Shown: positions 1 through 61,700 of the stretch, piece after piece
How the letters are laid out: every line of letters begins with the position of its first letter
Position numbering within the stretch: position 1 is the stretch's first letter
Position numbers and translations under genes: made by a program
Source of the DNA: Malus domestica
Lineage: Eukaryota > Streptophyta > Magnoliopsida > Rosales > Rosaceae
Direction of reading: 5' to 3'
DNA length: 64,000 nucleotides
Assembly (NCBI RefSeq): GCF_042453785.1
Contig: NC_091661.1
Coordinates: 26,651,501-26,715,500, forward strand
The notes under the pieces: generated by a model
Database searches by the model: none
Seen by the model: only the letters and a program-made list of their open reading frames with translations
What the model was told of the DNA's origin: nothing

Positions 1-1
1 A

Positions 2-22999: not shown

Positions 23000-23704
23000 A
23001 TGGGTATGGGTTTTCAAATAAAAGTCACCGTAAGTTGGGATATCATAATCATAATCGTAATCATAATCATAATTATTATACATTCTATACTGACGACGTT
23101 CTAACTCGGAACAAATGACGTCGTCTTGAGCTGCTTCAGCAAATTCATAGTCGGCAATGGAATCTTCGGGCAGCCACAATGTTCTGATTCCTTAAGCACA
23201 TCTCATTCTCAAATCTCCATCGACCTTAAGGTTAAAACAATAGTGCAGGTCGAGCGACACGAGACGAGGACAACAGTCAAGAATTTCCTGCAGGCCTTCG
23301 TCTGTCAGCTCATTTCCGAAAACTTGGAGGTGCTGCAAACCATGCAGTTCCTGCTATTATTGCAAGTGCGTCGTCGTTACACCCGGTTCGTCCAATGTAC
23401 CAGATTTTGTTAAGTTTAAGTGATTTCAAAAGTGGACAAGATCGTCCGACCACTTGCAAGGATTCACGTGAGATTCCGACGGAAACAATGAAATTTCAAG
23501 GTACTCCATCAATGGAAGCTTTGAAGCCACTTTTCCCATTTCCACAACATAAGATTGCACGAGTCGGAGGCTTGTAAGTCTACTCGAACTGCATAAAGAG
23601 GTGAAAATTTTAGCCACCGAAGCACAACAAAATCAAATTCTACAGTAACAATAATATATAAACATGCAAAACTGACATACCTATCAGCGGTATACTCAAG
23701 GACA
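23000..23704 (-). pseudogene. F-box/LRR (SKIP19-like) copy 1, 3' exon and intron part
   Basis: Minus-strand remnant of a gene whose paralogue is at 43477-44751. It encodes LRR-type sequence such as NELTDEGLQEILDCCPRLVS and LWLPEDSIADYEFAEAA, closely matching copy 2. It is broken: an in-frame TAA replaces a Glu codon after LRMRCA, and the frame shifts near the HGL(Q) region (about 23345). A GAT/ATC-rich microsatellite at 23041-23075 lies at the C-terminus, as in copy 2. The 5' part of this gene lies beyond the transposon at 23708-29393: the intron-exon junction sequence breaks at TTA 23705-23707 and resumes at 29394. Host gene remnant, not expected to give a functional product. Confidence 0.85.
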
Positions 23705-26364: not shown

Positions 26365-28626
26365 CTATTCCTCACCACTTAACCAATCTGTGGTGCTAGG
26401 ATCATCTTGTCTTGTTGTGCTAGGACCATCTTGTCTTGATCTCGCTTCTCTTGCACGCCTCCTTTGCACCACATCTCGCTTCTCCGACTGCCAAAAATAT
26501 GTAGAATTTGGAGATATCCCTTCTAAACGCGTGTTCATAATGTCACGATCTCGTTGTGCAATTCTTTCTTCTCTAAGCAACTCCCTTTCTTGCCTAAGTA
26601 GCTCTCTTTCCCTCTGTTCAGCTTGAAATGCTTGTTCAATAGCTGCAGCTTTTGCCTCATCTCTAGCCTTGCCAGCTTCATATTTCGCCAATTCCCGCGC
26701 CAACGTCAATTCACCTTGACGAGCAAGTTCTTGCATGTACTTTCCATAATCATTCTTGGAAGCACTCCCTTTCCTCTTTGAAGCCTTCTTACCTAGAGGC
26801 CTAATTGGATAACGGGTCGACCCCGACGCTTGTTCAGGAATGGGCGTTTCAGGCACTTCTTCTCCATCTTCTTCATCAACATGGGGGCCATGATCGGGTG
26901 TAGAGTGTGGAGGGGTGCTGTGTAGAGGGATGCTATTCATGCATACTTCTGGACCAACAGGCACAACTTTGAATTTAGGACAATCTTTAACAATATTCCA
27001 ACATTCCCACCGGGTGAATGATTTGTTTCTTGATTTGATTTTGGCACCATACCATGCTTGTGCTTGAAGTTGCTACAAATGATTAATAATGAAATTATTA
27101 GGTGACAAATAAATAATACAAACAAATGAATAATAATGAAATTATTAGTTAACAATTAAATAATACAAACAAATAATAATAATGAAATTATTAGGTCACA
27201 AATAAATAATACAAACAAATGAATAATAATGAAATTATTAGGTAACAAATAAATAATACAAACAAATGAATAATAATTTCATTATTAGGTAACAATTAAA
27301 TAATACAAACAAATAATAATAATGAAATTATTAGGTCACAAATAAATAATACAAACAAATAATAATAATGAAATTATTAGGTAACAAATAAATAATACAA
27401 ACAAATGAATAATAATGAAATTATTAGGTAACAATTAAATAATACAAACAAATAATAATAATGAAATTATTAGGTCACAAATAAATAATACAAACAAATA
27501 ATAATAATGAAATTATTAGGTCACAAATAAATAATACAAACAAATGAATAATAATGAAATTATTAGGTAACAATTAAATAATACAAACAAATAATAATAA
27601 TGAAATTATTAGGTCACAAATAAATAATACAAACAAATAATAATAATGAAATTATTAGGTCACAAATAAATAATACAAACAAATGAATAATAATGAAATT
27701 ATTAGGTAACAATTAAATAATACAAACAAATAATAATAATGAAATTATTAGGTAACAAATAAATAATACAAACAAATGAATAATAATGAAATTATTAGGT
27801 AACAATTAAATAATACAAACAAATAATAATAATGAAATTATTAGGTCACAAATAAATAATACAAACAAATAATAATAATGAAATTATTAGGTCACAAATA
27901 AATAATACAAACAAATGAATAATAATGAAATTATTAGGTAACAATTAAATAATACAAACAAATAATAATAATGAAATTATTAGGTCACAAATAAATAATA
28001 CAAACAAATAATAATAATGAAATTATTAGGTCACAAATAAATAATACAAACAAATGAATAATAATGAAATTATTAGGTAACAATTAAATAATACAAACAA
28101 ATAATAATAATGAAATTATTAGGTCACAAATAAATAATACAAACAAATAATAATAATGAAATTATTAGGTCACAAATAAATAATACAAACAAATAATAAT
28201 AATGAAATTAGGTCACAAATAAATATTGCAAACAAAGAAATAATACAAACAATTAGGTAACAAATAAATGAAACAAACAAATAATTATAATCAAATTAGG
28301 TAACAAAATAATAATACAAACAAATAATTATAATATATTCTTACCTCATCCGCATAATTTGCCCCACTTCGAACATTATTACTAGCTTGTGTCAAGGCAT
28401 CTCTCCACGTAGTAAAGGAATGACTAAGTATTTTCCAACGACTGGATATTGATTTTTTGGTTCTTTTCCCACTCATTTGCTCAACAAATTTGGTATGAAT
28501 TAAACTCCACATTTCTCGCAATTGCATCTCATTACCCGTAAGGGAATTATGAGTAACTTCAACCCAGCTAGTGCACAACGCAACATCTTCAAGAAGCGAC
28601 CAATTCGAACCTGCATCAGTAGCCAT
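26365..28626 (-). CDS. PIF/Harbinger ORF2, Myb/SANT-like DNA-binding protein
   Basis: Accessory protein of the transposon; in this superfamily ORF2 products help the transposase enter the nucleus and bind transposon ends. Two exons, 28345-28626 and 26365-27072, give 329 residues. Exon 1 carries the trihelix/SANT-like region (NWSLLEDVALCTSWVEVTHN and KKSISSRWKILSHSFTTWRD). Exon 2 continues AWYGAKIKSRNKSFTRWECW-NIVKDCPKF, then a proline- and histidine-rich linker, a basic patch (RPLGKKASKRKGSASKN) and a long charged coiled-coil segment (ERELLRQERELLREERIAQR). I see no stop or frameshift, so this gene looks whole. Its single intron (27073-28344) consists almost wholly of a minisatellite. Confidence 0.88.
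27075..28335. repeat. 46-bp minisatellite with a 139-bp higher-order period
   Basis: About 27 units of AATAATGAAATTATTAGGT plus CAAATAAATAATACAAACAA fill the ORF2 intron. Two unit types alternate: one with GGTCACAAATAAA and one with GGTAACAATTAAA. The second recurs near 27287, 27426, 27566, 27705, 27797, 27936 and 28075, that is every three units (139-140 bp) with one two-unit step (92 bp). Confidence 0.9.
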
Positions 28627-29393: not shown

Positions 29394-29396
29394 TTA

Positions 29397-29577
29397 GCGG
29401 CGTCGTGGAAGTCGTCGAACTTAACCTCGACCAAATTACCACAGCTGCTATCAACCGCGTGTCGACACGTATTATTCAAAATTGTACTTTTTTCCTAAGG
29501 AATATAAGTTGCCTCCTCGCATGTCAATGGTGCGCCACCTGAGAGGGTTCTTACAGATGTTGAACCACACCTTGCAC
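29397..29577 (-). pseudogene. F-box/LRR copy 1, exon 1 part a
   Basis: Continues the broken gene of 23000-23704 on the other side of the Harbinger element. On the minus strand it encodes the counterpart of CRHAVDSSCGNLVEVKLDDF (copy 2), here reading VEVKFDDFHDA, and the LMWRTIDMRG region with differences near the start. It matches 44365-44560 of copy 2. It ends where the TRIM at 29578-30506 begins. Confidence 0.85.
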
Positions 29578-30506
29578 AATTTCAGGTAGACGAGCCGAGG
29601 GCTTACTCTAACAATACTAATATTGTCCTCACTTGGCTACCTGCTTAATCCGTCAAATGTGGGGTTTTAATACAAAAGACCTCGGTATTAATTAGAGTGT
29701 GGTGATTCTATTTAAAGGGTTTGTTCTCAAGCCTTCTTACAGATGTTGAACCACACCTTGCACAATTACTCCAACAATACCAATACTGTCCTCACTTGGC
29801 TACCTGCTTAATCCGTCAAATGTGGGGTTTTAATACAAAAGACCTCGGTATTAATTAGAGTGTGGTGATTCTATTTAAAGGGTTTGTTCTCAAGCCTTCT
29901 GGCCGATGTGGGATAAAGAAATTCTAACACTCCTCCGCACGTGAGACCACATTTTATGGGTCACACGTGAAGTTCCACACATCGGCAACCACGTCGAGCC
30001 AAGTCGGGGCTCACCCATTCACGTGGGGCCAATGGGGACCCACCCATTCACGTGGCATCTCTTGACCTACGTGGAGCCAAGTTAGGGCTCACCCGTTCGC
30101 GCGGGGCCAATGGGGACCCACCCATTCACGTGGCATCTCTTGGCCTACGTGGAGTCAAGTTGGGGCTCATTCGTTCGCGCGGGGTCAAAGGGGACCCACC
30201 CGTTCACTTGGCCTACGTGGAGCCAAGTTGGGGCTCATTCATTCGCGCGGGGTCAAAGGGGACCCCACTCGTTCACATGGATGTACGGGCTCGTCCCTTG
30301 GCTCTGATACCATGTTAAATTTCAGGTAGACAGGTCACGGGCCCACTCCAACAACACTTATATTGTCCTCACTTGGCTACCTACTCAATCCGTCAAGTGT
30401 GAGGTTTCAATACAACAGGCCTCGGTATTAGTTAGAGTGGGGTAATTCTATTTAAAGGGTTTCTTCTCAAGCCTTTTGGCTGATGTGGGACAAAGGAATT
30501 CTAACA
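29578..30506 (-). mobile_element. TRIM-type LTR retroelement fossil (non-coding)
   Basis: Short non-autonomous LTR element in minus orientation. The LTR at 30313-30506 (194 bp) begins TGTTAGAATTCC and ends TTTAACA on the minus strand, followed by TGGTATCAGAGCC, a primer-binding site matching initiator tRNA-Met. The other LTR occupies 29578-29929 and is preceded by a purine tract (GCGGAGGAG). The internal part (about 29930-30312) has no gene and holds three imperfect copies of a unit of about 80 bp (CACGTGG, GTGGGGACCC, GGCCTACGTGGAG words). The first LTR carries a partial tandem duplication that includes flanking F-box sequence. It is a broken, moderately old copy inserted in exon 1 of the F-box gene. 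Confidence 0.82.
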
Positions 30507-30735: not shown

Positions 30736-31800
30736 GGCAAGAAAAAAATATATTATGCAGTTTATTGTAAATAAACTGCACAAGTGGAGAGAATAAACAA
30801 GGGGTCGACGAATATGTTTACACTTGTTTTTAGTCTTTAGATTAATTCTCATCCAATGGTCTAAAATAAGGGGTAAGATGACTCAACCTCCAATGGTCTA
30901 AAATAAGGGGTATGATTACTCAACCTTAATTAAACGTGGCTGTACAAGGAAATAAAAATAAACTCCAACTAATCAAAATAATTTGAAAAATAATATTATG
31001 CTAAAAGAGTGAAAACCTCAGCCTTGCACCTGAGGTTTTCATGTAAATACAATGTTCATCATGGTAGTAGCTTGTAACTCAATTAGTTAAGGGTACATTC
31101 ACCTAGTTAAGGTTACATTCACCCTTACACCTAAAGTTCCTTTTCAATCCTCCTCCTGGTAGTTTCTGACGCGTTATGTTAAAACTAATGTAACTATCTA
31201 AGTCTTGGTTTTAGCACAGAGAAGAGAAGACTGCTGCCAAACGGAGCTTACGAGAAAATAAAAGGCTGGAGATCATTAAAAGATGAGTTCTAACGGATAC
31301 AAAGTCTAGAGCAGTGCAACAACCCCAGACAACTCAAATTATAGTTTTAGATGAGCATGAAGAGATAAGAGGGGTAGATAGAGGTTGGATAAAAGTAACT
31401 TTGAAACCTTTACTCACATTCACGAGTGTGAGAAAACGAGCAAACTATTTTGACCTACTCACCAATTCTCACATTAACCTGTTTAGTTTTGGGAAATCGA
31501 TAATACAAGAATATTTTGTACTTGAGAGTGTAAGAAAACGATCACACTGTTTTAACTTGTTGACCTAACTCACATTAACCTCATTTCAATCGATTTAGTC
31601 ATGTTCTCAAAACTTATAGTGGCAAATATTGTATTTACAACATGAAGGTTGTAAGATTAACCTAAATAGTGCTTCTACCATACATTTGTGTATAGTATAC
31701 CTTATTTTCCAAGTGTATCATATTTCTTAATATTCGACTCTTAAACGACTATCCAACCGTTAATTTTTTTTATTTATATATTTAATATTAGTAGAAAGCA
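30736..31800. repeat. Segmental duplication arm, copy 1 (pairs with 44980-46470)
   Basis: Shares long collinear stretches with the region downstream of F-box copy 2: TATGTTTACACTTGTTTTTAG, GATGAGTTCTAACGGATACA, GCAGTGCAACAACCCCA and TGTGAGAAAAC(G/C)AGC(A/G)AACTA. Non-coding as far as I can see. A 35-bp word (TCTAAAATAAGGGGTA) repeats near 30870 and 30897. Confidence 0.75.
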
Positions 31801-32302
31801 CTGTTCTAAAAAACGGCATAGGTGCTAGGCGGTGATGAGCCGAGACGTTTTCTTGCAAATCGGTTGGAAAAATCGAATCAGCTCTAGGAAGCTGCCTAGG
31901 CTGGGTAGGCAGGGTAGGCAGAGCTAGGCGGTTTTTTTTTATGAAATTAAAAAATAAAATAAAAAATCCTATATAAGCCTAAGTGGTTTAAAATTGTGAA
32001 CTTGTTGTACATTTGTCATCTTACAATACTCCTCACTATGGTTATATGACATATATGCTTAATGTGTTTTTAAAATTTGGACTTGTTGAATACTCTTTTT
32101 GCATTTTATCGTTTTTTTTTATTATCTTATTCATGGATTTCATACAAGTATAATTTTTTGTAAGTGTTAATATGCACTTATTTACAATATATACAAGAAA
32201 TTTACCTAAATCCACCTAGGTTGCCTAGGCGCCCACCTAACCTCCTAGGCACTAGGTACTAGCCCGCCGCCCGACTAGCGCCTAGCGTTTTTTAGAGCCT
32301 GT
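31801..32302. mobile_element. Mutator-like MITE with 9-bp target duplication
   Basis: Flanked by TAGAAAGCA (31792-31800) and TAGAAAGTA (32303-32311). Ends are inverted: TTCTAAAAAACGGCATAGGTG at the left, CTCTAAAAAACGCTAGGCGC reading in from the right. A 9-bp duplication points to the Mutator group. A truncated mirror-image copy lies at about 38820-39195, so the insertion predates the inversion that made the two arms. Confidence 0.7.
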
Positions 32303-32503
32303 TAGAAAGTATATATATATTTTTTGGTTGGGACAGGACAAAGCTCACTATTTTCTCTTCCAATCACGTCGTTGCTTTCATTTGACCAGATGTCCAAAGA
32401 TGGAAAGGTGAAAAATGAAAAAGGTGTGTGTCAGAGCATGAAAAAGTCGTGCATAAGAGCATATATATAAGTATAACCTCCTCTTTTCAGTTCAATACTC
32501 TTA

Positions 32504-33338
32504 GAGCAAGTCCACCCTTGTGGACTTTGCGCCAGCACCCAGCGCATTTATCCACTCAAATAAACAGTAACAGACTCCAATGAACAGTAATAGGTCAAGG
32601 CATCTCCACCCCTAAAACTAAATAGCCTAGTCAATTTTATTAAAATATTATTAATTTTTATTATAAAATAATAATTTTTATTAAAGTACTCTCTCGACTC
32701 TATTCTTCTTTTTCTTCCGTGATTTTCCAACTGTGATGTCAAGCACAGTTTCACCACTTTTTCTTCCCTTCTTCTTTTTCTTCTCTTCAAACCACCAAAA
32801 CCCATGTGAGATTAGCCAAGTTCGGCCCTACCCCACGAGCCGCAACCACCAAACGAACCCGACGACCCGCAATCCCCCCCAACCCTCCTCCCCGATCCCC
32901 TCACCCACTAGTGCGCCAACCAAAACTGCAAACCCTTCGCCGTCGATCCTCTCAATCCCCGGAGCTCCTCCGATTGCGACTGGTTCTCCGACGCCGCCTC
33001 CGATTCAGACCATGACGTCAGCTACTTCGTCACCGATCTATTCAATCGTTGCAGCTCCGAGCAACAGCCCAAGACCGAGAGGGAGAGTTTTGGATATGGA
33101 AGCTCGAGTTGGGGTGGTGGTGGAAGGAAAGCAGAGAGCTTCGAATTCAGCTCAAGGAGATGTGGCGGTATCGCCTGGCATCATGTAGGCCGGGCAAGAG
33201 CTCAGCACATTCTGAGCCGGCCTAGAGACCAGCTTGGGCTGGGTGCCAGCCTATCTGCTCGGCTGGAATGGATTGGCTGGGTGCCGGGCCAATAATTTGG
33301 CTGGGTGCTGGCCTAAAGGTTCCCCGGTGGAACTGCTC
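32504..33338. mobile_element. 835-bp Harbinger derivative with GC-rich captured sequence
   Basis: TTA target duplication at 32501-32503 and 33339-33341; ends GAGCAAGTCCACC and, from the right, GAGCAGTTCCACC. The empty site is visible in the other inverted arm (ACTCTTACAGCTGCACTCCC on the opposite strand near 38610), proving insertion. Inside, 32805-33190 is GC-rich and coding-like, unlike the AT-rich transposon ends; one frame reads SYFVTDLFNRCSSEQQPKTE-RESFGYGSSSWGGGG. This looks like a captured host exon piece (Pack-type transposon); the source gene was not identified. Confidence 0.85.
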
Positions 33339-33524
33339 TTACAGCTGCACTCCCCTCTCGGACAACACCCTCAGCCTCAAGCAGTCTCTGTCCCAACACC
33401 AAGATCTCATTGCCAACCCTCTCCCTCCCCTTTCCCCGGCCATCTTTCTGTCATATTCTGTTAAAACAAACGTAACAAAAGTCATCCAAAAGTTCACATT
33501 GCCAACATAAACTAATTGCAAACA

Positions 33525-34085
33525 TCTCTCTCTGTATCTCTTTGCTATTTTTTCTAATTATATATTTGTTTTCATTTGCTGCATTTTCAGATTAGGAATT
33601 TTTGTTGAATTTGTTAAAATAAAGTATAAATTTAATTAAAATGTTTAAATATTTGTTGAATTATAATTGTTTGTGGAAGTAAACTGATATTAGAAGTAGC
33701 AATTCAATTAGGTAGCATGGTGTTAGTTTTCCCATAATTAGGCTGCTACTTCTACTAATTACCGCGATCGAAACCGCTGATTTAATTCTTTGGTTTCAAG
33801 TTTTTGGATGTCTTGTTAATCTCAAGGTTTAAGCTCATGATTGTGTTTGTTTCCATGCCGAAATGCATTGTATTTCCTTCTACAAGAGAAATGTTGGTTA
33901 ATGTAGAAGGGATTTCTTTTTTCTCGCAGGTCATGTCAACCAACCGATTTGCTGCAGGGTTCTGGATGGTTGTAACTTGTAAGAGTTGAAGAAACTTATG
34001 GTTGAAACCACCTCAAATCAGGTAAACCTCAAATATTTACATCAATACCATCTAATCTAGTAGAGTAGAATTTTCTTATTCAAAT
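33525..34085 (+). pseudogene. MnSOD gene fragment, copy in left arm
   Basis: Collinear with the intact MnSOD gene from just inside intron 1 onward (49785-50655): CATTTGCTGCATT, ACTGATATTAGAAGTAGCAA, CCGAAATGCATTG and CTCGCAGGTCATGT, then shortened remnants of exon 2 (GGTCATGTCAACC), exon 3 (CAGGGTTCTGGATGG) and exon 4 (GGTTGAAACCAC) joined by deletions. Exon 1 and exons 5-6 are absent. Because intron sequence is kept, it arose from DNA duplication, not from a transcript. Confidence 0.9.
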
Positions 34086-34259
34086 TTAAGTAATGCCTTT
34101 TAAAACTGAAACAAAAATGAGTTTGAAGTGTCAACCCAGATAGTGCTTAAAGTGTTGATTTATCCCAAAAGCCTAGATAAAATCCTACTAACTGCTCTGA
34201 TACAAACAAACACTTTTAAGTTAGCAAGTCTGTCATCATTTTCTGACTTGAACTAGTTA

Positions 34260-35468
34260 ATGTTAGATGTCATGGAAGCTGGCCGATGATACACTCAATA
34301 AGATCCGGTCTTCCTCCTAACTTCTGCTTCTTCGTCTCCTAGCAAGGGATACAAACAACAATGTTGGTTTTAAAGAAAAACCAAATAGAGTATAGACATT
34401 GGAGGTAGTGAATGCTAACAGCCATATAAAAACTATTTGAGTAGAGACATATGATATATGAGATACTACCTTATTAGTTTGATAGAAAGACCATGCTAGT
34501 CCCCGAGGCAACCAGAAATTCAAGGAGGCCTGTTAGTGTAGTCGGGAACAATCTGGTCAGCTCGCACTCTATTTCATGAAGTGTCTGCATAGAACATGCA
34601 TATGATACTTAAAAAAAAAAGGTGGGGAAATTATCAATACGACAGACTTGAAAAGCATAACCAAATCATACCATCCGATTCTCCCCAAGCCTTTGTGCAT
34701 GTTGATTCCCATGGTTTGCTGTATTTTTTGTGAAATCAAATATACCCACCACACTGTCCTGGTATCCCTTTTTGTTGTGCGATCTATCATTGAGAACCGA
34801 CAGTAAACATTTTTTGTGGACTGACGTTTCAAGTGATGATTGAAGGCTCACCACTGTCCCCTTGTGCTTATGAGTGTAAGCTTGTCTCCAGTTGCTCCTT
34901 TTCGTGTCATTGAGGTGCAGAATGGCGCGAAATGGGAAAAAGAACCTCTCTGAAGACCCTTGTAGTAAAGGGTGGTGATATAGGTCATAAAACGTAACTC
35001 TGTTGGATTGTAAATGAATTTAGTCTGAGTCTTGTTATAAAAAAACATAACAAGATTTTTATTTGTAAAGTACCTTTGTTGTCCTGCCATGTACATGAAG
35101 TGTTTAAGTTTAGGGTAGTCTTTGTCACCTGGAATGGTTTTAAGTAACTCTATCAACTGTTTACGAAGTGGCGCCAACGGTGTTCCTCTGCTAAGTACTT
35201 TAAGTATTTTTCCCTCATCGGAGGTGATATTTTTGCCAGTCCCAAGAACCCGCGAGCATTTTCGCTTTCGAACAACTCCATTAAAATGAATCTATATGTA
35301 GGAAAAAAAGAATTATTAATTTAAGAAATATAGAGGGAGGGTCTAATTCAATTAATGATTACCTGATCCGATTCCTGTATCGAGGAACCAAACTTTGTCC
35401 GTTCCATCGGCTTTCTATGTTGTCTTTATTGAGAACATACGATAGTTGGTGGTACGTTCTACTGAGCC
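34260..35468 (-). repeat. Unrecognised repeated unit U, copy 1
   Basis: Minus-strand copy of a unit found in whole or part at least five times between 34.2 and 40.7 kb. It contains a GT-AG intron-like gap (GATCAG/GTAATTCC to CATATAG/ATTC) and a longer open stretch reading LRKQLIELLKTIPGDKDYPK-LKHFMYMAGQQR, which suggests a captured gene fragment. I do not recognise the protein. The copies differ by substitutions and have no shared full-length frame. Confidence 0.7.
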
Positions 35469-36490
35469 CAAGTACCACCGACTATCAGATGTTCTCAATA
35501 AAGACAATACAGAAAGCCGATGGAACCGACAAAGTTTGGTTCCTACATATAAGAATCTGATCAAGTAATTCCTAATTGAATTAGACCCTCCCTTTATATT
35601 TCTTAAATTAATAATTCTTTTTTCCTACATATAGATTCATTTTAATGGAGTTGTTCAAAAGCGAAAATGCTCGTGGGTTCTTGGGACTGGCAAACATATC
35701 ACCTCCGATGAGGCAAAAATACTTAAAGTACTTAGCAGAGGAACACCGTTGCCGCCACTTCGTAAACAGTTGATAGAGTTACTTAGGTATTTATAGTTTT
35801 TTGTGAAATCAAGTATACACACCACACTGTATTTTTTGTGGACTGACGTTTCAAGTGATGATTGAAGGCTCACCACTGTCCCCTTGTGCTTATTAGTGTA
35901 AGCTTGTCTCCAGTTGCTCCCTTTCGTGTCATGGAGGTGCAGAATGGTGCGAAGTGGGAAAAAAAACCTCTCTGAAGACCCTTGTAGTAAAGGGTGGTGA
36001 TATAGGTCATAAAACGTAACTCTGTTGGATTGTAAATGAATTTAGTCGGAGTCTTGTTATAAAAAAAACATAACAAGATTTTTATTTGTAAAGTACCTTT
36101 GTTGTCCTGCCATGTACATGAAGTGTTTAAGTTTAGGGTAGTCTTTGTCACCCGGAATGGTTTTAAGTAATTCTATCAACTGTTTACGAAGTGGCGGCAA
36201 CGGTGTTCCTCTGCTAAGTACTTTAAGTATTTTTGCCTCATCGGAGGTGATATGTTTGCCAGTCCCAAGAACCCACGAGCATTTTCGCTTTCGAACAACT
36301 CCATTAAAATGAATCTATATGTAGGAAAAAAAGAATTATTAATTTAAGAAATATAGAGGGATGGTCTAATTCAATTAATGATTACCTGATCCGATTCCTG
36401 TATGTAGGAACCAAACTTTGTCCGTTCCATCGGCTTTCTATGTTGTCTTTATTGAGAACATACGATAGTTGGTGGTACGTTCTACTGAGC
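35469..36490. repeat. Loop of the large palindrome: two opposed partial U copies
   Basis: 35469-35786 is a plus-orientation partial U, 35787-36490 a minus-orientation one. The head-to-head junction sequence (GTTGGTGGTAC...GTACCACCGAC around 35468) is repeated almost unchanged around 36485, and in diverged form near 40138. Confidence 0.8.
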
Positions 36491-39195
36491 CCAAGTACCA
36501 CCGACTATCAGATGTTCTCAATAAAGACAATACAGAAAGCCGATGGAACCGACAAAGTTTGGTTCCTACATATAAGAATCTGATCAGGTAATTCCTAATT
36601 GAATTAGACCCTCCCTTTATATTTCTTAAATTAATAATTCTTTTTTCCTACATATAGATTCATTTTATTGGAGTTGTTCGAAAGCGAAAACGATTGTGGG
36701 TTCTTAGGACCGGCAAACATACTTATCACCTCTGGCAAGGTAAAAATACTTAGAGTACTTAGTAAAGGAACGTCGTTGCCGCCACTTCGTAAACAGTTGA
36801 TAGAGTTACTTAAAACCATTCCGGGCGACAAAGACTACCCTGAACTTAAACACTTCATGTACATGGCAGGACAACAAAGGTACTTTACAAATAAATATCT
36901 TGTTGTGTTCTTTTATAACAAGACTCAGACTAAATTCATTTCCAATCCAACATAGTTACGTTTTATGACCTATATCACCACCCTTTACTACAAGGGTCTT
37001 CGGAGAGGTTCTTTTTCCCATTTCGCGCCATTCTGCACCTCAATGACACGAAAAGGAGCAACTGGAGACAAGCTTACACTCATAAGCACAAGGGGACAGT
37101 GGTGAGCCTTCAATCATCACTTGAAACGTCAGTCCACCAAAAATGTTTCTTGTCGGTTCTCAATGATAGATCGCACAACAAAAAGGGATACCAGGACAAT
37201 GTGGTGGGTATATTGGATTTCACAAAAAATACAGCAAACCATGGGAATCAACATGCACAAAGGCTTGGGGAGAATCGGATGGTATGATTTGGTTATGCTT
37301 TTCAAGTCTGTCGTATTGATAATTTCCCCACCCTTTTTTTTTAGTATCATATGCATGTTCTATGCAGACACTTTATGAAATAGAGCGCGAGCTGACCAGA
37401 TTGTTCCCGACTACACTAACAGGCCTCCTTGAATTTCTGGTTGCCTCGGGGACTAGCATGGTCTTTCTATCAAACTAATAAGGTAGTATCTCATATATCA
37501 TATGTCTCTACTCAAATAGTTTTTATATGGCTGTTAGCATTCACTACCTCCAATGTCTATACTCTATTTGGTTTTTCTTTAAAACCAACATTGTTGTTTG
37601 TATCCCTTGCTAGGAGACGGAGAAGCAGAAGTTAGGAGGAAGACCGGATCTTATCGAGTGTATCATCGGCCAGCTTCCATGACATCTAACATTAACTAGT
37701 TCAAGTCAGAAAATGATGACAGACTTGCTAACTTAAAAGTGTTTGTTTGTATCAGAGCAGTTAGTAGGATTTTATCTAGGCTTTTGGGATAAATCGACAC
37801 TTTAAGCACTATCTGCGTTGACACTTCAAACTCATTTTTGTTTCGGTTTTAAAAGGCATTACTTAAATTTGAATAAGAAAATTCTACTCTACTAGATTAG
37901 ATGGTATTGATGTAAATATTTGAGGTTTACCTGATTTGCGGTGGTTTCAACCATAAGTTTCTTCAACTCTTACAAGTTACAACCATCCAGAACCCTGTAG
38001 CAAATCGATTGGTTGACATGACCTGCGAGAAAAAAGAAATCCCTTCTACATTAACCAACATTTCTCTTGTAGAAGGAAATACAATGCATTTCGGCATGGA
38101 AACAAACAAAATCATGAGCTTAAACCCTGAGATTAACAAGACATCCAAAAACTTGAAACCAAAGAATTAAATCAGCGGTTTCGATCGCGGTAATTAGTAG
38201 AAGTAGCAGCCTAATTATGGGAAAACTAACACCATGCTACCTAATTGAATTGCTACTTCTAATATCAGTTTACTTCCACAAACAATTATAATTCAACAAA
38301 TATTTAAACATTTTAATTAAATTTATACTTTATTTTAACAAATTCAACAAAAATTCCTAATCTGAAAATGCAGCAAATGATAACAAATATATAATTAGAA
38401 AAAATAGCAAAGAGATACAGAGAGAGATGTTTGCAATTAGTTTATGTTGGCAATGTGAACTTTTGGATGACTTGCATTGTTACATTTGTTTTAACAGAAT
38501 ATGACAGAAAGATGGCCGGGGAAAGGGGAGGGAGAGGGTTGGCAATGAGATCTTGGTGTTGGGACGGAGACTACATGAGGCTGAGGGTGTTGTCCGAGAG
38601 GGGAGTGCAGCTGTAAGAGTATTGAACTGAAAAGAGGAGGTTATATATATGCTCTTATGCACGACTTTTTCATGCTCTGACACACACCTTTTTCATTTTT
38701 CACCTTTCCATCTTTGGACATCTGGTCAAATGAAAGCAACGACGTGATTGGAAGAGAAAATACTGAGCTTTGTCCTGTCCCAACCAAAATATATATATAC
38801 ATACACACACTTTATACCAGGTTTTAAAAAACGCTAGGCGCTAGTCGGGCAACGGGCTGGTGCCTAGTGCCTAGGAGGCTAGGTGGGCGCCTAGGCAACC
38901 TAGATGGATTTAAGTAAATTTCTTGTATATATTGTAAATAAGTGCATATTGACACTTACAAAAAATTATATTTGTATGAAATCCATAGATAAGATAATAA
39001 AAAAAATGATAAAATGCAAAAAGAGTATTCAACAAGTCCAAAATTTAAAAACACATTAAGCATATATGTCATATAACCATAGTGAGGAGTATTGTAAGAT
39101 GACAAATGTACAACAAGTTCACAATTTTAATTCACTTAGACTTATATAGGATTTTTTATTTTATTTTTTAATTTCATAAAAAAAAACCGCCTAGC
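36490..39195. repeat. Large inverted repeat, right arm
   Basis: Reverse complement of the left arm: U copy (36491-37700, plus), spacer, MnSOD fragment (37870-38440, minus), leader-like segment, then the Mutator-like MITE broken off at about 39195. It carries the uninterrupted site for the 835-bp Harbinger insertion. Confidence 0.88.
37870..38440 (-). pseudogene. MnSOD gene fragment, copy in right arm
   Basis: Mirror copy of 33525-34085, with the same exon losses (reverse-strand CAGGTCATGTCAACCAATCG and AGGGTTCTGGATGGTTGTAA). The shared losses show that it was copied from the left-arm fragment, or both from one precursor, after the MnSOD sequence decayed. Confidence 0.88.
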
Positions 39196-39204
39196 TTTCA
39201 TATG

Positions 39205-40660
39205 GCGACCATCCCTCTATATTTCTTAAATTAATAATTCTTTTTTTCCTACATATAGATTCATTTTAATGGAGTTGTTCAAAAGCGAAAATGCTCGTGG
39301 GTTCTTGGGACTGGCAAACATATCACCTCCGATGAGGTAAAAATACTTAAAGTACTTAGCAGAGGAACACCGTTGCCGCCACTTCGTAAACAGTTGATAT
39401 AGTTACTTAAACCCATTCCAGGTGACAAAGACTACCCTAAACTTAAACACTTCATGTACATGGCAGGACAACAAAGGTACTTTACAAATAAAAATCTTGT
39501 TATGTTTTTTTTATAACAAGACTCCGACTAAATTCATTAACAATCCAACAGAGTTACGTTTTATGACCTATATCACCACCCTTTACTACAAGGGTCTTCA
39601 GAGAGGTTCTTTTTCCCACTTCGCGCCATTCTGCACCTCAATGACACAAAAAGGAGCAACTGGAGACAAGCTTACACTAATAAGCACAAGGGGACAGTGG
39701 CGAGCCTTCAATCATCACTTGAAACGTCAATCCACAAAAAATACAGTGTGGTGTGTATACTTGATTTCACAAAAAATACAGCAAACCATGGGAATCAACA
39801 TGCGCAAAGGCTTGGGGAAAATCGGATGGTATGCCTTGGTTATGCTTTTCAAGTCTGTCGTATTGATAATTCCCCTTTTTTTTAAAGTATCATATGCATG
39901 TTCTATGTAAACGCTTGATGAAATAGAGCGCGAGCTGATCGGATTGTTCTCGACTAGACTAACAGACCTCTTTGAATTTCTGGTTGCCTCGGGGACTAGC
40001 ATGGTCTTTCTATCAAACTAATAAGGTCGTATCTCATATATCATTGTCTCTACTCAAATAGTTTTTATATGGCTGTTAGCATTCGCTATCAATTTCTGTA
40101 CTTTATTGAGAACATCTAATAGTTGGTGGTACATTCTACTGAGCCTAAGTATTGCCGACTATCAGATGTTCTCAATAAAGACAATAGAGAAAGCCGATGG
40201 AACGGACAAAGTTTGGTTCCTACATACAAGAATCTGATCAGGTAATCCTATTGAATTAGACCCTCCTTTTATGTTTCTTAAATTAATAGTTCTTTTTTCC
40301 TACATATAGATTCATTTTAATGGATTTGTTCGAAAGTGAAAACGCTTGTGGGTTCCTAGGACCGGCAAACATACTTGTCACCTCCGGCGAGGCAAAAATA
40401 CTTAGAGCACTTAGTAGAGAAACGCCGCTGCCGCCACTTCGTAAACAGTTGATAGAGTTACTTTAAACCATTCCGGGCGACAAAGAATACCCTAAACTTA
40501 AACACTTCATGTACATGGCAAGACAACAAAGGTACTTTACAAATTTTGTTTTTTATAACAAGACTCAGACTAAATTCATTTACAATCCAACAGAGTTACG
40601 TTTTATGACCTATATCACCACCCTTTATTACAAGGGTCTTCGAAGAGGTTCTTTTTGCCA
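39205..40660 (+). repeat. Two further direct partial U copies
   Basis: 39205-40112 starts inside the intron-like part of U and runs through its 3' portion; 40113-40660 starts with a diverged head-to-head junction and runs into the 5' portion before stopping at CTTCGAAGAGGTTCTTTTTG. Several open frames of 60-160 codons occur, but they conflict between copies. Confidence 0.75.
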
Positions 40661-40810: not shown

Positions 40811-42680
40811 GATCACCTCCAATGGAAGGCTAAATGCTAAATTCCCCCCCCCCCCCAAACCATCTCCAACCCATGCTAAAACATTGGGCTAAATGCCAAA
40901 TGTTAAAGCTAGGCCAAATACCCCCTAGAATTCCCCCCTTACGCGACTGGACTCGCTGGCCATTGGGCCAGTCTCGGCCCGTTCATGCTCCAACGCGCCC
41001 CACGCGAAGCGCCTGCAATTCGTTTCCGACCAGGGTGGGCCCCGCTGTCAGCGGTTTGTCGGCCACCCAATGCAGTCCAACGACTACATTTTCAATCCGA
41101 TGGCTGGTTTTCACGGACCATTGGTTGATCCAACGGTCCATATTCAAATTTGATTTTTTTAAATATGTTATTTTAAAATACATTGAATCCAACGGTTGAG
41201 TTCAAATATAATCAAATCTAACGGTCCAAATTTAAATCCAACGGCTAAAATTATTTAACTCAAAATTCACCAAAAAACTCTATAAATACCTAAGTATTTG
41301 TTCAAACATCCACACAAAACTCAATTTTCTCTTACAATTATTCCAATTTATCTTTCTACCATTTCTTTCCATTTCCAAATTGTTCAACATGGCAAGAGAG
41401 CATATTAGAGGTCGTAAGTGGACATGTGAGGAAGATGTTGCTCTATGCTTGGCATGAGTTTCTATTAGCAAAAATGGTGCAGTTGGCACAAATCAAAATA
41501 AGAAGGTTTTGTGGGATAAAATCATTGCAAAGTTTCAAGAAAACTGCAATGGTGGTGGGCGGGATGGTGGGGGTGTTTATGAGCGGTGGAAGACTATCAA
41601 CAAAGCATGCACTTTATGGAAGAGAAGCTTGGAGAGAGTCATGGTTGGCATGGCTAGTGGACGGAGCGCCACAGAAATTGTGAGTTTTGTTTTTGATATT
41701 TTATTTGTCATGTACATAATATTATGTTGCAACTAATTATTTTTATGTATTTTTTGCATAGGGTGACGAAGCAATGAAAATTTACAAGATAAGAGTAACA
41801 CCAAAAAATCAAGTTTTTAAGTTGCAACATGTTTGGGACGTCCTCAAGGATTGTCCGAGGTGGGGAATCGATGCAGACCAACAATGGGGAAGATTATTTC
41901 AACGTGAAGCTGCACAGACAAATGCCGGAGGTGAAGGTGTTGATGAAATGACCCCATCTCCTTCTTTTGCAAGGCCATCGGGAAGAGATAAGCAAAATGA
42001 AGCAAAGAGAAAAGGGAAGTCCCAAGATCCGATGAGTGGACACTTTGATACCGGAATTGCAAAATTGAACAAAACTCATAGCACTCGCCAAGAAGAAGCT
42101 GCCCGAATGTGTTTGCAAATGAAGGAAATCTCAGATATGGAGGAAAATAGGTTTGAAATTGAATTCTTGATGAATGACCACAACAAATACACTCCAGAGA
42201 GGAAGAAGTTCTTACGTGGTAAGCAAAAGGAAATTATGCGAAAGTCTGCCTCAAGGAGTATGTTTCAAGATGATGAATCATTTGAACCCTATATCCCAAC
42301 ATTTCAACGAAGTCCATCACCAAGTGAAGATGGTGGATATGATTGTTAAGTTTATGTAGTGTATGAATTATGTGCTTTGAAAGATTGGTAAATTGAAAGT
42401 TAGCCCAGGGCTGAAAGATTGGTAAAAGTTGAAGGCTTGCTTTGTGGAAAATTTAGTGGTTTTTCAATATTTATCGGAATTTAAATTTTTTTAGATTAAA
42501 ATGTTCAAAATTAATTTACGATAGTCTACATTTTTTTTTTAAATTTAATTTAAGAAAAAAAATAGCCTAAGTTCATTCTTTAATAATCTCAGGCTAAAAT
42601 TTTAGATCAAAACGGTTGGAGCAAAAAATATGTTTCTAGGCTAAAATATTTGACTTTTAGCCCAACCATTGGAGATGGTC
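40811..42680 (+). mobile_element. ORF2-only PIF/Harbinger-type transposon, 1.87 kb
   Basis: TTA target duplication at 40808-40810 and 42681-42683. Ends are inverted: GATCACCTCCAATGG at the left, GACCATCTCCAATGG from the right. It contains a Myb/NAM-associated ORF2-type gene but no transposase, so it can move only with help. A poly-C run lies near 40850; a GC-rich patch at 40930-41060 and repeated CCAACGG words at 41090-41250 make up the left part. Confidence 0.82.
41389..42349 (+). pseudogene. Transposon ORF2 / Myb-like DNA-binding protein with one stop
   Basis: Two exons, 41389-41679 and 41762-42349, 292 codons. The N-terminal trihelix-like part reads RGRKWTCEEDVALCLA, then a TGA where relatives have Trp, then VGTNQNKKVLWDKIIAKFQE and YERWKTINKACTLWKRSLER. 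Exon 2 carries FKLQHVWDVLKDCPRW, QQWGRLFQREAAQTNAGGEG, a basic stretch and a charged helical tail. The frame is otherwise open, including across the intron. This is the large plant family often annotated as No-apical-meristem-associated or glutathione-transferase-T3-like, in fact Harbinger ORF2. Confidence 0.88.
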
Positions 42681-43437: not shown

Positions 43438-43476
43438 AGTATGGCTGTTTTGTTTTCAAATTAAAGTCACCGTAAC

Positions 43477-44751
43477 TTACATGTAGGATATCATAATCGT
43501 AATCGTAATCGTAATCATTATACCCTGAGTCGGAATAAACCTTCTATACCAAGGACCTGAGTCGGGATGAAGGTAGTTGTCTATAGCTGATTCAGAAAAT
43601 TCATAGTCAGCAATGGAATCTTCAGGTAGCCACAATGTTCTGATTCCTTCAGCACATCTCATTCTCAAATCTCCGTCAAGGTCAAGATTGAAACAACAGC
43701 GCAGGTCAAGCGACACGAGACGAGGACAACAGTCAAGAATTTTTCGCAAGCCTCCGTCCGTCAGCAAATTTCCGATAATTTGGAGGTGCTGCAAGCCATG
43801 CATGGTTCCTGCTATTGCAAGAGCGTCGTCGTTATTTCTCCTCCGTACCACGTTTTGTTAAGTTTGAATGATTTCAAAAGTGGACAAGAGCGTCCGACCA
43901 CTTGCAAGGATTCACGTGACAATCCATGATACAATGAAATTTCAAGGTGCTCCAACAATGGAAGCTTTGAAGCCACTTTCCCCAGTTCCACAGCAGAATT
44001 CACGAGTCGGAGACTTCTAATTCTACTCGAACTGCATAAAGGGTTTAAGATTTTTAGCCACCGATGTACACCAAACTCACATACTAAAGTAACAATAATA
44101 TATAAACATGCAAAACTGACCCCCGTCCGTCGTCCAACATGGTATAAATTCTAGGGAACTTTAATGAAACGCTTCCGGTACTGTTTACTTTAACGAAAAA
44201 CCATATTTTAACACTAAAAAGTCAATCATGATACTATTCACTCTATCTTTTGTTTTGTTCTTATCGTTAAAACTCAAAGTTTTCAAGTTCTTTTCATTAG
44301 TTTTCCTTAAATTCTATGGTGTTTGAGAAAGCATGACATACCTATCAGCGATATACTCAAGGACAGTAGCGGCGTCGTTGAAGTCGTCTAACTTGACCTC
44401 GACCAAATTACCACAGCTGCTATCAACCGCGTGTCGACACATCTTCTTCAAATCGTACTTCATGGTTAAGAGATATATCTCACGATTGCTCTTGACTAAG
44501 AGTCCTCGCATGTCAATGGTGCGCCACATGAGAGGATTCTTACAGATGTTGAACCACACCTTGCACACCATCGGAACGCTCGTCAGGATGTCGAAGGTTG
44601 TCAACCGTGAGAGTATTGATATTATAACGTCATCTGGTAGTTCCGTCCATCGATGGCAGTTTCGCACACGCTTTGCTCCAAGGCTTTTCATGATCTTTTT
44701 CTTCCACATTGCTCTGGTGTTGGTTGTTGTCTCTTTAAAGATATAACACAA
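43477..44751 (-). pseudogene. F-box/LRR protein, SKIP19-like, copy 2
   Basis: Candidate SCF ubiquitin-ligase substrate receptor. Exon 1 (44342-44751) encodes the F-box WTELPDDVIISILSRLTTFD-ILTSVPMVCKVWFNICKNP, MWRTIDMRG, CRHAVDSSCGNLVEVKLDDF. Exon 2 (43477-44031) carries LRRs: KLPLLEHLEISLYHGLSRES, CPLLKSFKLNKTWYGG, then NNDDALAIAGTMHGLQHLQI, LTDGGLRKILDCCPRLVSLD and the end LWLPEDSIADYEFSESA. The last part is in a different frame: between WYGG and NNDDALAI (about 43850) the sequence is 7 bp shorter than copy 1 (WYIGRTGCNDDALAI), which shifts the frame. The gene thus looks recently disabled, unless an unseen splice restores it. A 154-bp MITE sits in its intron. Either Met1 (44751) or Met15 (44709) could start. 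Confidence 0.85.
44154..44307. mobile_element. 154-bp MITE with 9-bp target duplication
   Basis: TAAATTCTA flanks both ends (44145-44153 and 44308-44316). Ends are inverted-like: GGGAACTTTAATGAAA and, from the right, AGGAAAACTAATGAAA. It lies in the intron of F-box copy 2 and is absent from the remnant intron of copy 1. Confidence 0.8.
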
Positions 44752-49483: not shown

Positions 49484-51822
49484 ATGGCTCTCCGAGCTCT
49501 CGTGGCCAGTAAAGCGCTCCGATTAGGTCTTCAGAGCGAGCCCAGAATCCTTGCTCATTCTCGCGGCCTGCAGACCTTCTCGCTCCCCGACCTTCCCTAC
49601 GATTATGGCGCCCTGGAGCCTGCAATCAGCGGCGAGATCATGCAGATCCACCACCAGAAGCACCACCAGGCTTACGTCACCAACTACAACAATGCTCTCG
49701 AGCAGCTCCACGACGCCATCGGCAAGGGCGACGCTGCTGCCGCTGTTAAGTTGCAGAGCGCCATCAAGTTCAATGGCGGAGGTCAAACATCTCTCTATGT
49801 ATCTCTGTGCTATTTTTGTAATTATTTATTTGTTTTCATTTGCTGCATTCTCATATTAGGGTTTTTTTTTTCAATTTGTTAAAAAAAAAGTTTAAATTTA
49901 ATTAAAATGTTCAAATATTGGTTGAAGTAAACTGATATTAGAAGTAGCAATTCAATTAGCTAGCATTGTGTTAGTTTTCCCGTAATTAGGCTGCTACTTA
50001 TACGAATTACCACAATCGAAACCGCTGATTTAATTCTTTGGTTTCAAGTTCTTGGATGTCTTGTTAATCTCAGGATTTAAGCTCATGATTTTGTTTGTTT
50101 CCATGCCGAAATGCATTGTCTTTTCTTTTAAAAGAGAAATGTAAAAGGGGTTTATTTTTTCTCGCAGGTCATGTAAACCACTCGATTTTCTGGAAGAATC
50201 TGACTCCTGTTAGTGTAAGTTCATGTTTCCCTCTCTCTCTATCTTACAAGCTGGTTATTAACCGTTCATTTCCCTAATACAGTAATGCTTTATTTATGGC
50301 AGCAAGGTGGCGGCGAGCACCCTCATGGTAAGCTGGGCTGGGCTATTGACACAAATTTTGGAACTTTTGAAGCATTGGTGCAAAAGATCAGTGCAGAAGG
50401 CGCTGCTTTGCAGGGTTCTGGATGGGTGGTAAGTTTACCATCTTCTTGATTTTATAGCATTTGTTCCATGTTATTCAACTAGATGTTTCAATCGACATTC
50501 AACCTGTTCGCATGCTCGTTTGATCTTTCTTGGCAGTGGCTTGCTCTAGACAAAGAGTTCAACAAACTTGTGGTTGAAACCACTGCAAATCAGGTAAACT
50601 CAAATATTTACTTCAATGCCATCTAATCTAGTAGCGCAGAATTTTCTTTTAGGTCTACTCAACATTACTTCTAGCCATATTCAAGTTGCACAAATCCATC
50701 CTGTGTGTTGTTTTACATTGATAGCAATGATAGCCTCTCAGCAATGTAGTTTAGACTCCTCGTGAATTGTTACTATTAGTTCCTTACGGAATGGTATATC
50801 TTCTTTCCATTAATCATGTAGGCTACTGTTGGCTGTTGATTTATGACGGTTAGACTTAGTCTAAAACTTTAGCTCCAGCATAGAACTCATGTTGAAGATC
50901 TGTTTTCTTGTTACCCCATCTCAAGGATTATTCAACATTCAGGACTTTAGGATTTACAAAGGTTTCTGTTCTGAATCTCTTTGTGCAAAGCACTTGTAGT
51001 AGTTGATATGCAGCACGCAATTATGGTTTTTGTTTCATCTGAATATCCTTTAATTTGAGTAACTTGTTACAGGATCCATTGGTTACTAAGGGAGCATCTT
51101 TGGTTCCATTACTTGGTATTGACGTTTGGGAGCATGCGTACTACTTACAGGTACATCCTTCAGTTATTTTCACTTATCAGTTTTTAAGCGACTCAGTGTA
51201 GTATATAAGAGTCAATACAGATTGACACACTCTTATTGCCTAATTGGCGAGCCTTGGAAGTCTAAGATATTGTTTATCTTGTGGAGTACAAGTGGATTAG
51301 GTAGGAGGGTTGTTAAAACTGTCTTTGTGAAGGACAAATTAGTTTTTGCTCCTTGGAATTGAATTGTTTATGAGGGATAGGTCGTTCCGTGGGATGAAGT
51401 TTATAGTTAGGCTTTCGTTCAGACGCTTCGGAAGTGACACCGATTCTTGTTTTCCTATAATGTTAGGTGTCCGTGCACAGCCTCCATCCTTTTCTGTCAC
51501 TACTTGAACTAGCATCTGAAATGCACCGAGACCTGAAACAAGCTCATCGTTTATTCAATTTATCACCGTCATCAATTTTATCTACGTCCAATGATGATTT
51601 TTTGTAGAATACATGTCAGTGGTGTTTGCTCTTGTCAGCTGTTTGTATTATTAGTTTCCTCCTATCCCGTTTCGTGTATCATGCGACGTGAAAGTTTGAA
51701 TTAAGACACATCCATTTTTCGAGTTGCAGTACAAGAATGTGAGACCAGATTATCTGAAGAACATATGGAAAGTCATCAATTGGAAGTATGCCAGCGAAGT
51801 GTACGAGAAAGAAAGCCCTTGA
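49484..51822 (+). CDS. MSD1: Manganese superoxide dismutase, mitochondrial
   Basis: Converts superoxide to hydrogen peroxide and oxygen in the mitochondrial matrix. Six exons: 49484-49781, 50168-50214, 50303-50428, 50537-50593, 51073-51150, 51730-51822, giving 232 residues. Residues 1 to about 30 ([20 protein letters not shown] and on) are basic and free of acids except one, a mitochondrial presequence; the mature enzyme begins about [15 protein letters not shown]. The four metal ligands are present: His56 (IHHQKHH), His104 (HVNHSIFW), Asp193 and His197 ([11 protein letters not shown]), with the Mn/Fe-SOD signature DVWEHAYY. Degraded copies of its intron 1 to exon 4 lie 11-16 kb upstream in two opposed arms. 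Its neighbours (RPS26, TRM1, nucleotidyltransferase) match the Arabidopsis MSD2 neighbourhood from memory, while the targeting peptide resembles MSD1. Confidence 0.97.
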
Positions 51823-55475: not shown

Positions 55476-58400
55476 TCAGCGCTGCTGAAGTTGCTTGGCA
55501 ATTCTAATGCAGTCTTCCATCGGACAATTCGTCTTGATTGCATTGGATTCAATGTGTGACCTACTCACAGCATATCCTTCCTGCAAGAGATTATTAGTCT
55601 TTGGACTGAAACGAAAAACTATGAGGACTCGAAAAGTCCAGTAAAACCTAAAGCCAACAGCCCGCCTAACTCAATGCTAATAAGACTTTCTTTGCTCAAG
55701 TGGGCCAAGCCTCTGGGGCAAAACTATGAGGTGGCAGCAAGTCGATGTAGGGACTCTGACAATGGAACGGGGTTGTGTTTTTATCCAACTTCAAGTGCAA
55801 CTCCCAGTACACAGGGTTATACTCTTTGTGAAAATGGTTTTGACCTACCAAAGTTTTTCTCTGTATAATTGCCAAAGTAGGCTGTCAAACATGTAACTCA
55901 TACCCGACAAGTGTCAAACACGCACTTCTAAGTAGTCAGTGGTTAGACTGTCATACTCAAGTTTTTCTCCGTCAAGTGGCATACATGCAAAACCATACCA
56001 ACAAGTGTCAACATGCATTTGAAACTGACCAGGCTGTCCTACTCAAAATTTTCACCATACAATTGGCAAACATGCAAAATCGTACCCAACAAGTGTCCAC
56101 CATGCACTGCAAATCAAACAAGTATTCAACACGCACTTGCAACCGACAACGCTCTGTATAATTGGCAAACATGCAAGACCATATCTAACAAGTGTCCATC
56201 ATACACTAATCCCCAACAGCTCCTAAAACCCCCAAGTGGAAAACATGCACCCATATAGCCAACGGAGTAAGATTCTCTCTCCTCCGAATTCCCCTTCCCT
56301 TCTCTCCCCTCATATTTGAACGGTCATGAAGCCACGTCAACATCTTGTGTTGACTTCTTTATAGAGAGAGACAAAAAGAAAAGTGAGAAAGGAGGAGAGA
56401 GAATGCGAGAGTAATTAAAGGGGAGAGAACCCTACTCTATTCCCAACACCCCCCCCAAAACAAATGTCAAACATGCACTCATATGCCACACTAGAGTAGT
56501 GTGGAAATTACCTTTTGAAGGGTGGACATCACGGCTCTCAGTGACGGAGAATTTACTTTCGCACGACTTGCCACCTGGGACAGTAAAAACAGAAAATCCA
56601 TCATTTTCCCAGATTAACAACTTTGGGAACAAAAGTGAGTGGTAATTTTTTTTTTAGTAAGGACCTCGTCCAACTTGGTGTAGCCAAAGGGTAATCTGGG
56701 GTCACTCTCAGCCACCATTTGGTTCAAAAGTTTGTCCAGATCAGTTCCTGTTTCAATGCCTGCCCATCCCCATTCCTCGGCCAAACTTAACATTTCTGTA
56801 ATATAAGCAGTGTCATGCAACGGCCCTGTCCAGAGAGGGCCAGAAACAACAAGTGACTTGGAGACCTACAAAAAACCGAAACAACTTAAGGTTTCATTTA
56901 AGATTAGAGTACATTGGAACATTGATCCTTAACTTATGACCGAGTTATAGCTTTAGTCGTTAAATAAAAATCAATTAAAATTGGTATCGCAATTTGACAA
57001 AATGTGAAGTAGTTCTTGATGCCAAGTCCACGGGTGTACCCGCCAAACTTAAGCACATGACATGCATGTATTTAAAGGGGCATGTGCCCTATTCCTTGAC
57101 TTACTCCTTAAAAGGGATTCACAAGCCTAATTTTGGTGGGAATTCTTTTCGTGATGTATTTAACAAGGCATGTGCTTTATTCCTCGACTTACTCCTTACA
57201 AGGGATTCACATGCCTCATTTTGGCGGTAATTGTTTTCGTGAAAAAAACAAAAACTAAAGAATCATAATTCAGAGATTCAAGATTAATCTGTTATAGTGA
57301 AAGAAAGAACAAAAACTTGGGAAGTCAACAAAACGAAATCATACGACCTAAACATTACCCAATACCTTTGAATCACTGCAGGGGCAACCGATCCGACCAA
57401 GTTCAGCCCATGAGTACTCTTGAGAACTTCCACAGCTGTTGCAGTAGCTGATGAACCCATAATGTCTGTCGGAGAAAGTATAAAAATTGATCAGCAACAA
57501 CATAAGAGGTCTAATAAACCACACAGCTTTCACACACATACAAAATCATGCAACCACCTTACTTGTTATCAGGAAGCTTTCCCCGATTGACTTGGAGCAT
57601 GACTCTGAAAATTGGTCCATGATATGAATAGTATGAAAACAGTGGAGTAACTCGATACCCCAGCACTGAAGCTTCCCGCACAGCCCCTCCAATAAGCATT
57701 CGCAAACCAAGCTCATTCGAGTATGGCATTGGCCGGACATAAGCTCCATATGCAGCTAAAGTTCTACAGAAACAAAGTAAAATATATCAGAATTGTATGC
57801 AATCAACCAATACAACCTTCAATTGTAAAGTCTCCAACTTCTCGTTCAATTGTAAATCCCATTTAATTACGATATCAAATTCGAACGCATCAAGAAAAAA
57901 TGCAGTTAGTACTGCAATACCAATTGGTCAAGAAATGAACATGTTATTGCGCAAAGCATCAAACTTTAAAGGAATAGAGAATTGAAACAACCATTTTGCT
58001 TGAAATTAGATTTGACACTCACTGTTGAGGCCTGCGACCACCGGACGAGAACCCATCAGTTGAAGTAACATACAACAATCCATTCAACTTCAAAGCATTA
58101 AACGCCGACCTCAAAAACGACGAATCGCTCCCAAACGAATCAATGTCAATCAAATCAAAGAAATCCCTTTTCAGATAACACTCCGTCATGATCCGATTCG
58201 CATCCGTAAGCGACACCTCCCACCTCGCCTCATCCCCGGAACCACTCTCCACCTGCGACAAGTTCTCCGTGATAACTTTCTTGTTCTCATCATTCGCGTC
58301 ATTTGCCAGAACAAAATCGGCCTCCGCCTCGACGAGGTACCGAACAGACCGAATCCCGCAGCCACACAGTGCATCGAGAACTCGCAATTTGCCCTCGGAC

Positions 58401-60464: not shown

Positions 60465-60522
60465 ACCCATTTTATTAAGACCCGCCAAAATTAGCCCCCC
60501 TCCAACCCATTTGATTCCCGCC

Positions 60523-61610: not shown

Positions 61611-61700
61611 GTAAGGTGGTTGCATGATTTTGTATGTGTGTGAAAGCTGTGTGGTTTATTAGGCCTCTTATGTTGTTGCTGATCAATTTTATACTTTCCA

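Follow-up and report, generated by a model that had tools for sequence, protein, structure and literature searches.

A decayed duplicate of the MnSOD gene on apple C1 was probably turned into a nested palindrome by template switching. Taken as a whole, the reading of a template-switched and methylated palindrome, in which any RNA would act mainly in cis, stands in our judgement at about an even chance. Self-comparison of the window (the whole stretch analysed, C1:26651501-26715500, 64,000 nucleotides) confirmed the nested inverted repeat well beyond chance, and BLAST aligned 33336-35785 with 38619-36164 at an E value of 0 and 95.9% identity (Table 1). The initial annotation had described arms of about 2.7 kb around a 1-kb loop, within 31801-40660. 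The inverted arms were recovered and their length was revised upwards, to 3,017 aligned bases, the earlier description having fallen short because the Harbinger-like insertion splits the left arm. The strict loop is only 378 bases long, what had been taken for a loop of two opposed copies turned out to be a pair of small palindromes with their centres near 35463 and 36487, and the stretch 39207-40660 consists of two head-to-tail pieces of the inner module rather than arm. As had been proposed, each arm holds the same MnSOD remnant in opposed orientation and the intact gene begins at 49484. Both remnants read towards the loop, and the arms, first called head to head, are therefore tail to tail for MnSOD.

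Table 1. Positions of the features in and around the palindrome, numbered from the first base of the window.
Feature	Position	Strand	Remarks
Duplicated F-box pieces	23010-23676 / 43452-44120; 29395-29578 / 44367-44567		82-83% identical
hAT-like MITE	31800-32302	.	Complete in left arm, truncated in right arm
Left arm, large inverted repeat	31922-35785	+	From self-comparison and arm alignment
Harbinger-like element	32504-33338	.	835 bases, left arm only, TTA on both sides
MnSOD remnant, left	33519-34077	+	Intron 1 to start of intron 4
U copy a (type 1)	34384-35503	-	
Hairpin, centre of small palindrome A	35420-35507	.	-55.1 kcal/mol vs shuffle mean -14.7
U piece a1 (c-like first, then b-like)	35463-35785	+	
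Strict loop between arms	35786-36163		378 bases, chiefly antisense U sequence
U piece b (type 1)	35797-36526	-	
Right arm	36164-39196	-	Left-arm content reversed, without Harbinger-like insertion; terminates within hAT-like element
Hairpin, centre of small palindrome B	36443-36530	.	Identical to A
U copy c (type 2 first, type 1 from ~36960)	36487-37568	+	
MnSOD remnant, right	37875-38433	-	
U piece d (nearest to type 1)	39207-40107	+	
Related hairpin, start of U piece e	40097-40184	.	-43.1 kcal/mol vs shuffle mean -13.5
U piece e (distinct, closer to type 2 than type 1)	40101-40660	+	
Intact MnSOD gene	49484-51822	+	Six coding exons, 232 aa

End-to-end alignment of the arms showed 120 substitutions (4.0%), 77 of them transitions, together with small indels and an 838-base difference. 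The 36 exact runs of at least 21 bases sum to 2,392 bases, giving the long, nearly perfect inverted repeat expected of a hairpin siRNA locus. Divergence was 1.7% over 32301-35050 (33/1,905), rose to 8-23% per 100-base bin (77-92% alike) in the five bins of 35100-35599, and fell to 1% beyond 35599. The right arm breaks off inside the hAT-like element, followed by about 10 unmatched bases and then U sequence. TATA-like strings were seen by eye near 32461 and 38640.

Two transposons help to read the arms. The outer one, which we take to be hAT-like, bears on the left an 8-base near-duplication, TAGAAAGC/TAGAAAGT (by eye), and is repeated in the genome (651 Mb in 19 contigs), with at least 41 matches when the best 40 of 1,497 first-look candidates were scored. 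The inner one, presumably a Harbinger-like element, has at least four near-full-length copies elsewhere that are 96-98% identical. In the right arm the site of this element is still empty, and the duplication therefore predates its insertion, unless excision was precise. Elsewhere in the window, a minisatellite with a period of about 47 bases occupies 27075-28343, and an open frame at 41458-42349 gave a weak NAM-associated match (E 0.0005, under the Pfam cut-off) and is possibly transposon-derived.

The inner arms, the loop and 39207-40660 are built from six pieces of one module, U, which occurs in two main types. Pieces a and b belong to the same type, c and a1 in their first part to another (differences of 0/38, 0/80 and 1/80 in the first three 80-column bins), and e is closer there to c than to a. 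The switch points are visible in the mosaic: c turns a-like at about 36960 and a1 turns b-like in its second half, which accounts for the divergence peak between the arms at 35100-35599. The three hairpins are each 88 bases long and share an arm motif found six times in the window, two per hairpin, against 0.02 expected; the background for hairpin A was the mean of 200 single-base shuffles.

The substitution pattern among the U pieces suggests that the module, an orphan, probably once coded for protein. With gapped codons dropped, omega was 0.32 for a-e, 0.33 for b-e, 0.42 for d-e and 0.68 for c-e, and ranged from 0.16 to 0.80 across eleven pairs, a-d giving 0.80. Nonsynonymous changes per site were fewer than synonymous ones for a-e (Fisher p 0.004) and b-e (p 0.006), and coding constraint was not significant for c-e (p 0.45). 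All six pieces are truncated, frameshifted or interrupted by a stop. Genome searches with the best candidates scored placed all seven matches to 34384-35400, and all ten matches to a 170-aa frame of U, in this locus and none outside it. Pfam scans of sets of five and six U pieces yielded nothing above the cut-off, and Nse5, the sole match (E 0.071, under its own cut-off), was rejected as the identity of U. PDB sequence searches with two U pieces gave no match, and AlphaFold produced poor models (mean pLDDT 37.4 and 52.8). The module has the look of a spliced gene. A viral origin, raised from its look alone, is unsupported, and a viral-contig scan with one piece found no relative.

In the MnSOD remnant, homology begins at the very start of intron 1 and continues, with internal deletions, through exon 2 (in part), a sliver of exon 3 and most of exon 4 into the start of intron 4, most of the sequence that the remnant shares with the gene being intron. 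In the left copy, the exon 2 part lies at 33930-33950 and the exon 4 part at 33981-34021, with the exon 3 sliver also present (bounds by eye). Over intron 1, trimmed where the C7 homeolog is no longer alike, the two remnants differ at 4/427 sites; K2P distances are 0.097-0.100 from remnant to C1 gene, 0.109-0.113 from remnant to C7 gene and 0.140 between the two genes, the untrimmed distances to C7 being 0.19-0.21. With no outgroup, the remnant groups with C7 at 15 sites and with C1 at 19, and C1 groups with C7 at 8, a split that does not fix how the remnant, the gene and the homeolog branch. The F-box and upstream stretches exist in two copies, at 23-33 kb and at 43-47 kb, with their order preserved (K2P 0.09-0.19) and an F-box domain detected in the right copy; the remnant may thus form the terminal part of a tandem duplication spanning both F-box and MnSOD sequences. 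Other MnSOD pieces occur elsewhere: one with exons 3-5 and introns lies about 167 kb away, at 4900-5726 of L044 (C1:26863001-26873000), and an intronless, processed-looking one with exons 1, 3 and 4 lies on C6 (L045).

A 60-kb comparison showed that C7 30.87-30.93 Mb is colinear with the window, and there the partners of window positions 22569 and 49131 are only about 106 bases apart. The 26.5-kb block that bears the palindrome is therefore absent from C7, whose matches within the block are repeats and MnSOD itself only. The block may represent a gain on C1 or a loss on C7, the two not being distinguished without an outgroup. A second, independent inverted duplication lies at 57474-58971 and 60212-61698 (96.6%); its arms carry the same gene start head to head, which looks to us like that of a TRM1-type tRNA methyltransferase, and both match one homeolog stretch.

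From the arm structure we infer the copying mechanism, the order of the steps being one reading among several. A partial MnSOD copy on C1 would have decayed beside the orphan, gene-like module U, which would already have comprised inverted copies meeting at a short hairpin. A template switch between these inverted U copies, through break-induced replication or a fold-back event, would then have copied the neighbouring stretch in reverse, from the MnSOD remnant to the middle of the hAT-like element, producing the large palindrome into whose left arm the Harbinger-like element later inserted. The palindrome probably stays methylated at CG and CHG, as in silenced repeats, and any hairpin RNA would most likely affect the repeat itself, in cis, and have scarcely any lasting influence, or none, on the intact MnSOD gene. 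The nearest model for such switching may be the fold-back inverted duplications of yeast and human (PMC7467729, PMC3907307), which, in the portion of those reports available, share with this locus the inverted duplication; hairpins are named there as intermediates in yeast, and hairpins occupy the centres of the small palindromes here. Unlike in those cases, the large switch here falls within longer U copies, there are several switches nested in one another, and the product is a relic of the plant germline.

A possible methylation footprint was seen in the mutations that separate the arms. Transitions over the whole arms stood at 46/290 for CG plus CHG and 31/824 for CHH, a ratio of 4.2. The ratio reached 8.6 in 32301-35050 (14/174 vs 5/533, p 7e-6), a stretch chosen after looking, and the remnant with its preceding 183 bases showed 6/65 vs 0/198. 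It was 4.0 in the U mosaic, where older U types are compared, 2.1 in the last U part and 1.6 in the hAT part; 31922-35050, hAT part included, gave 3.4 and the whole arm minus the U mosaic 3.3. Among the controls, the ratio was 1.5 for the second inverted repeat (10/258 vs 11/415), 1.1-2.2 for five homeolog blocks and 1.7-3.6 for ten Harbinger pairs among five copies; the b-d pair of U pieces gave 4.4. The whole arms were above the second repeat at z 2.3 and above two homeolog blocks at z 2.8-3.1; against two Harbinger pairs there was no difference (z 0.4, z 1.5). Once the hAT part was in and the later U parts were out, z stayed below 1.9 against all five controls (1.6 against the second repeat, 1.5-1.8 against the two homeolog blocks). 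No version of the stretch was significantly above Harbinger pair L048-L049 (z -0.15 to 1.24), and ordinary transposon-type methylation therefore explains the bias equally well. The bias of the arms may thus be a footprint of methylation, not distinguishable from that of a transposon pair and dependent on the stretch chosen (3.3-8.6).

The strongest rival is an inert relic, making no RNA and showing just the background methylation and mutation pattern of transposon-rich intergenic DNA. We regard it as a serious, though not a probable, explanation. Consistent with it, the ratio with the hAT part included falls inside the range of the ten Harbinger pairs, the stops, frameshifts or truncations extend to every U piece, and the U pieces are without a Pfam match above cut-off or an Rfam family; the whole-arm ratio, however, is above those of the second repeat and two homeolog blocks.

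A transcript crossing the palindrome could fold into long double-stranded RNA, as the initial annotation had suggested: the predicted fold of RNA 33336-38619 has a minimum free energy of -4307 kcal/mol and places 2,388 of its 2,498 pairs in the register of the palindrome. The exon matches of up to 40 nt expected at the outset shrank to a longest exact match of 17 bases to the C1 or C7 mRNA, and exact intron-1 matches between remnant and gene reach 44 bases. Within three mismatches of the C1 mRNA lie 35/542 21-mers of the left remnant and 41/542 of the right, whose antisense could therefore pair with it. Target rules for plant small RNAs are stricter, and antisense 21-mers that pass them number 13/542 (left) and 25/542 (right) for the C1 MnSOD mRNA, and 18/542 and 30/542 for that of C7, so that possible targets with matching sequence exist in both mRNAs. 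No 21-mer of the remnant sense strands passes, nor do any of 9,900 windows in the other arm parts (all but 38434-39196) for each mRNA, nor any of 9,960 in control window 1-5000. Given the predicted fold and the 21-mers that pass, the chemistry permits the siRNA proposal of the initial annotation. At gathering score no Rfam family, MIRNA families included, matched within 30000-53000; a new miRNA, beyond the known Rfam precursor families, is possible.

An active hairpin locus, transcribed and diced to siRNAs of 21-24 nt, of which those from exons 2-4 would lower MnSOD mRNA or methylate intron 1, would draw on this near-complete predicted hairpin, on the passing 21-mers and on the long intron-1 matches. 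We nevertheless consider it unlikely: the mRNA matches are short, the MnSOD reading frames of both the C1 and the C7 gene are intact, and the lineage of the intact gene shows no excess of CG or CHG transitions. Of the 15 changes in shared intron 1 that are special to it, two were G>A at CG, and 4/19 in the C7 homeolog were C>T at CG or CHG. The lineage thus gives no sign of a lasting trans effect on the intact gene, in what are small numbers. Regulation of MnSOD by the palindrome is possible but unsupported. Its extension to a natural RNAi gene acting on mitochondrial superoxide dismutase, in which antisense 21-mers with few mismatches to exons 2-4 would tune both MnSOD mRNAs and U siRNAs would silence U, is more doubtful still. 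No inverted-repeat siRNA locus at apple MnSOD was found among the papers listed from one open-licence library.

In the part of the source at hand, Arabidopsis Ws PAI1-PAI4 (PMC3203196) likewise comprises tail-to-tail inverted gene copies with intact relatives elsewhere; the PAI arms consist of genes whose promoter is known, for which dsRNA and small RNAs have been demonstrated and methylation measured. The arms here, in contrast, hold a decayed fragment, mostly intron and about 85% like the gene; trans-silencing of the PAI type finds no C1-lineage CG/CHG excess in the region shared with the intact relative, among only 15 changes. The soybean I locus, CHS1-3-4 / CHS4-3-1 (PMC6710647), is similar, as far as the available text goes, in having inverted gene copies with other sequence between them and a repeat altered by recombination between copies; unlike here, its arms are identical 10.91-kb CHS blocks, for which siRNAs have been demonstrated and a phenotype is seen in the seed coat. 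Pseudogene copies of a possible target that lie side by side in opposite orientation also recall the inverted-duplication model of MIRNA origin, as outlined in the accessible section of PMC3237417, although this palindrome has no Rfam match. Hairpin transgenes are methylated within the repeat, according to the excerpt of PMC9263138 consulted. By structure, we would class the locus among inverted repeats that carry gene fragments; it is not a proven siRNA gene.

Two further explanations concern the origin of the palindrome itself. An assembly artefact, in which the assembler would have copied a single stretch a second time in reverse, had been named beforehand as a ground for refutation, and palindromes are hard to assemble correctly; the 120 substitutions, the small indels, the 838-base difference and the transposon confined to the left arm make it very improbable. 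A MnSOD-capturing transposon with long terminal inverted repeats is hardly credible, even though inverted arms with gene fragments recall Pack-type or fold-back elements: genome searches with the best candidates scored found no second place with a complete remnant and U, a lack of further copies on which we reject a transposon origin of the whole palindrome, and the arm homology starts and stops within a MITE whose left copy is complete, with no flanking target duplication by eye.

The palindrome, probably template-switched, makes it possible to follow how a structure of this kind, bearing gene fragments, arises in a plant: the two types of U mark the switch points, the empty site orders the events and the homeolog supplies a chromosome without the block. 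The probably once-coding orphan U, found only at this locus, poses a separate question. If small RNAs exist here, the locus would test whether inverted pseudogene fragments that are about 10% divergent still act on their parent gene.
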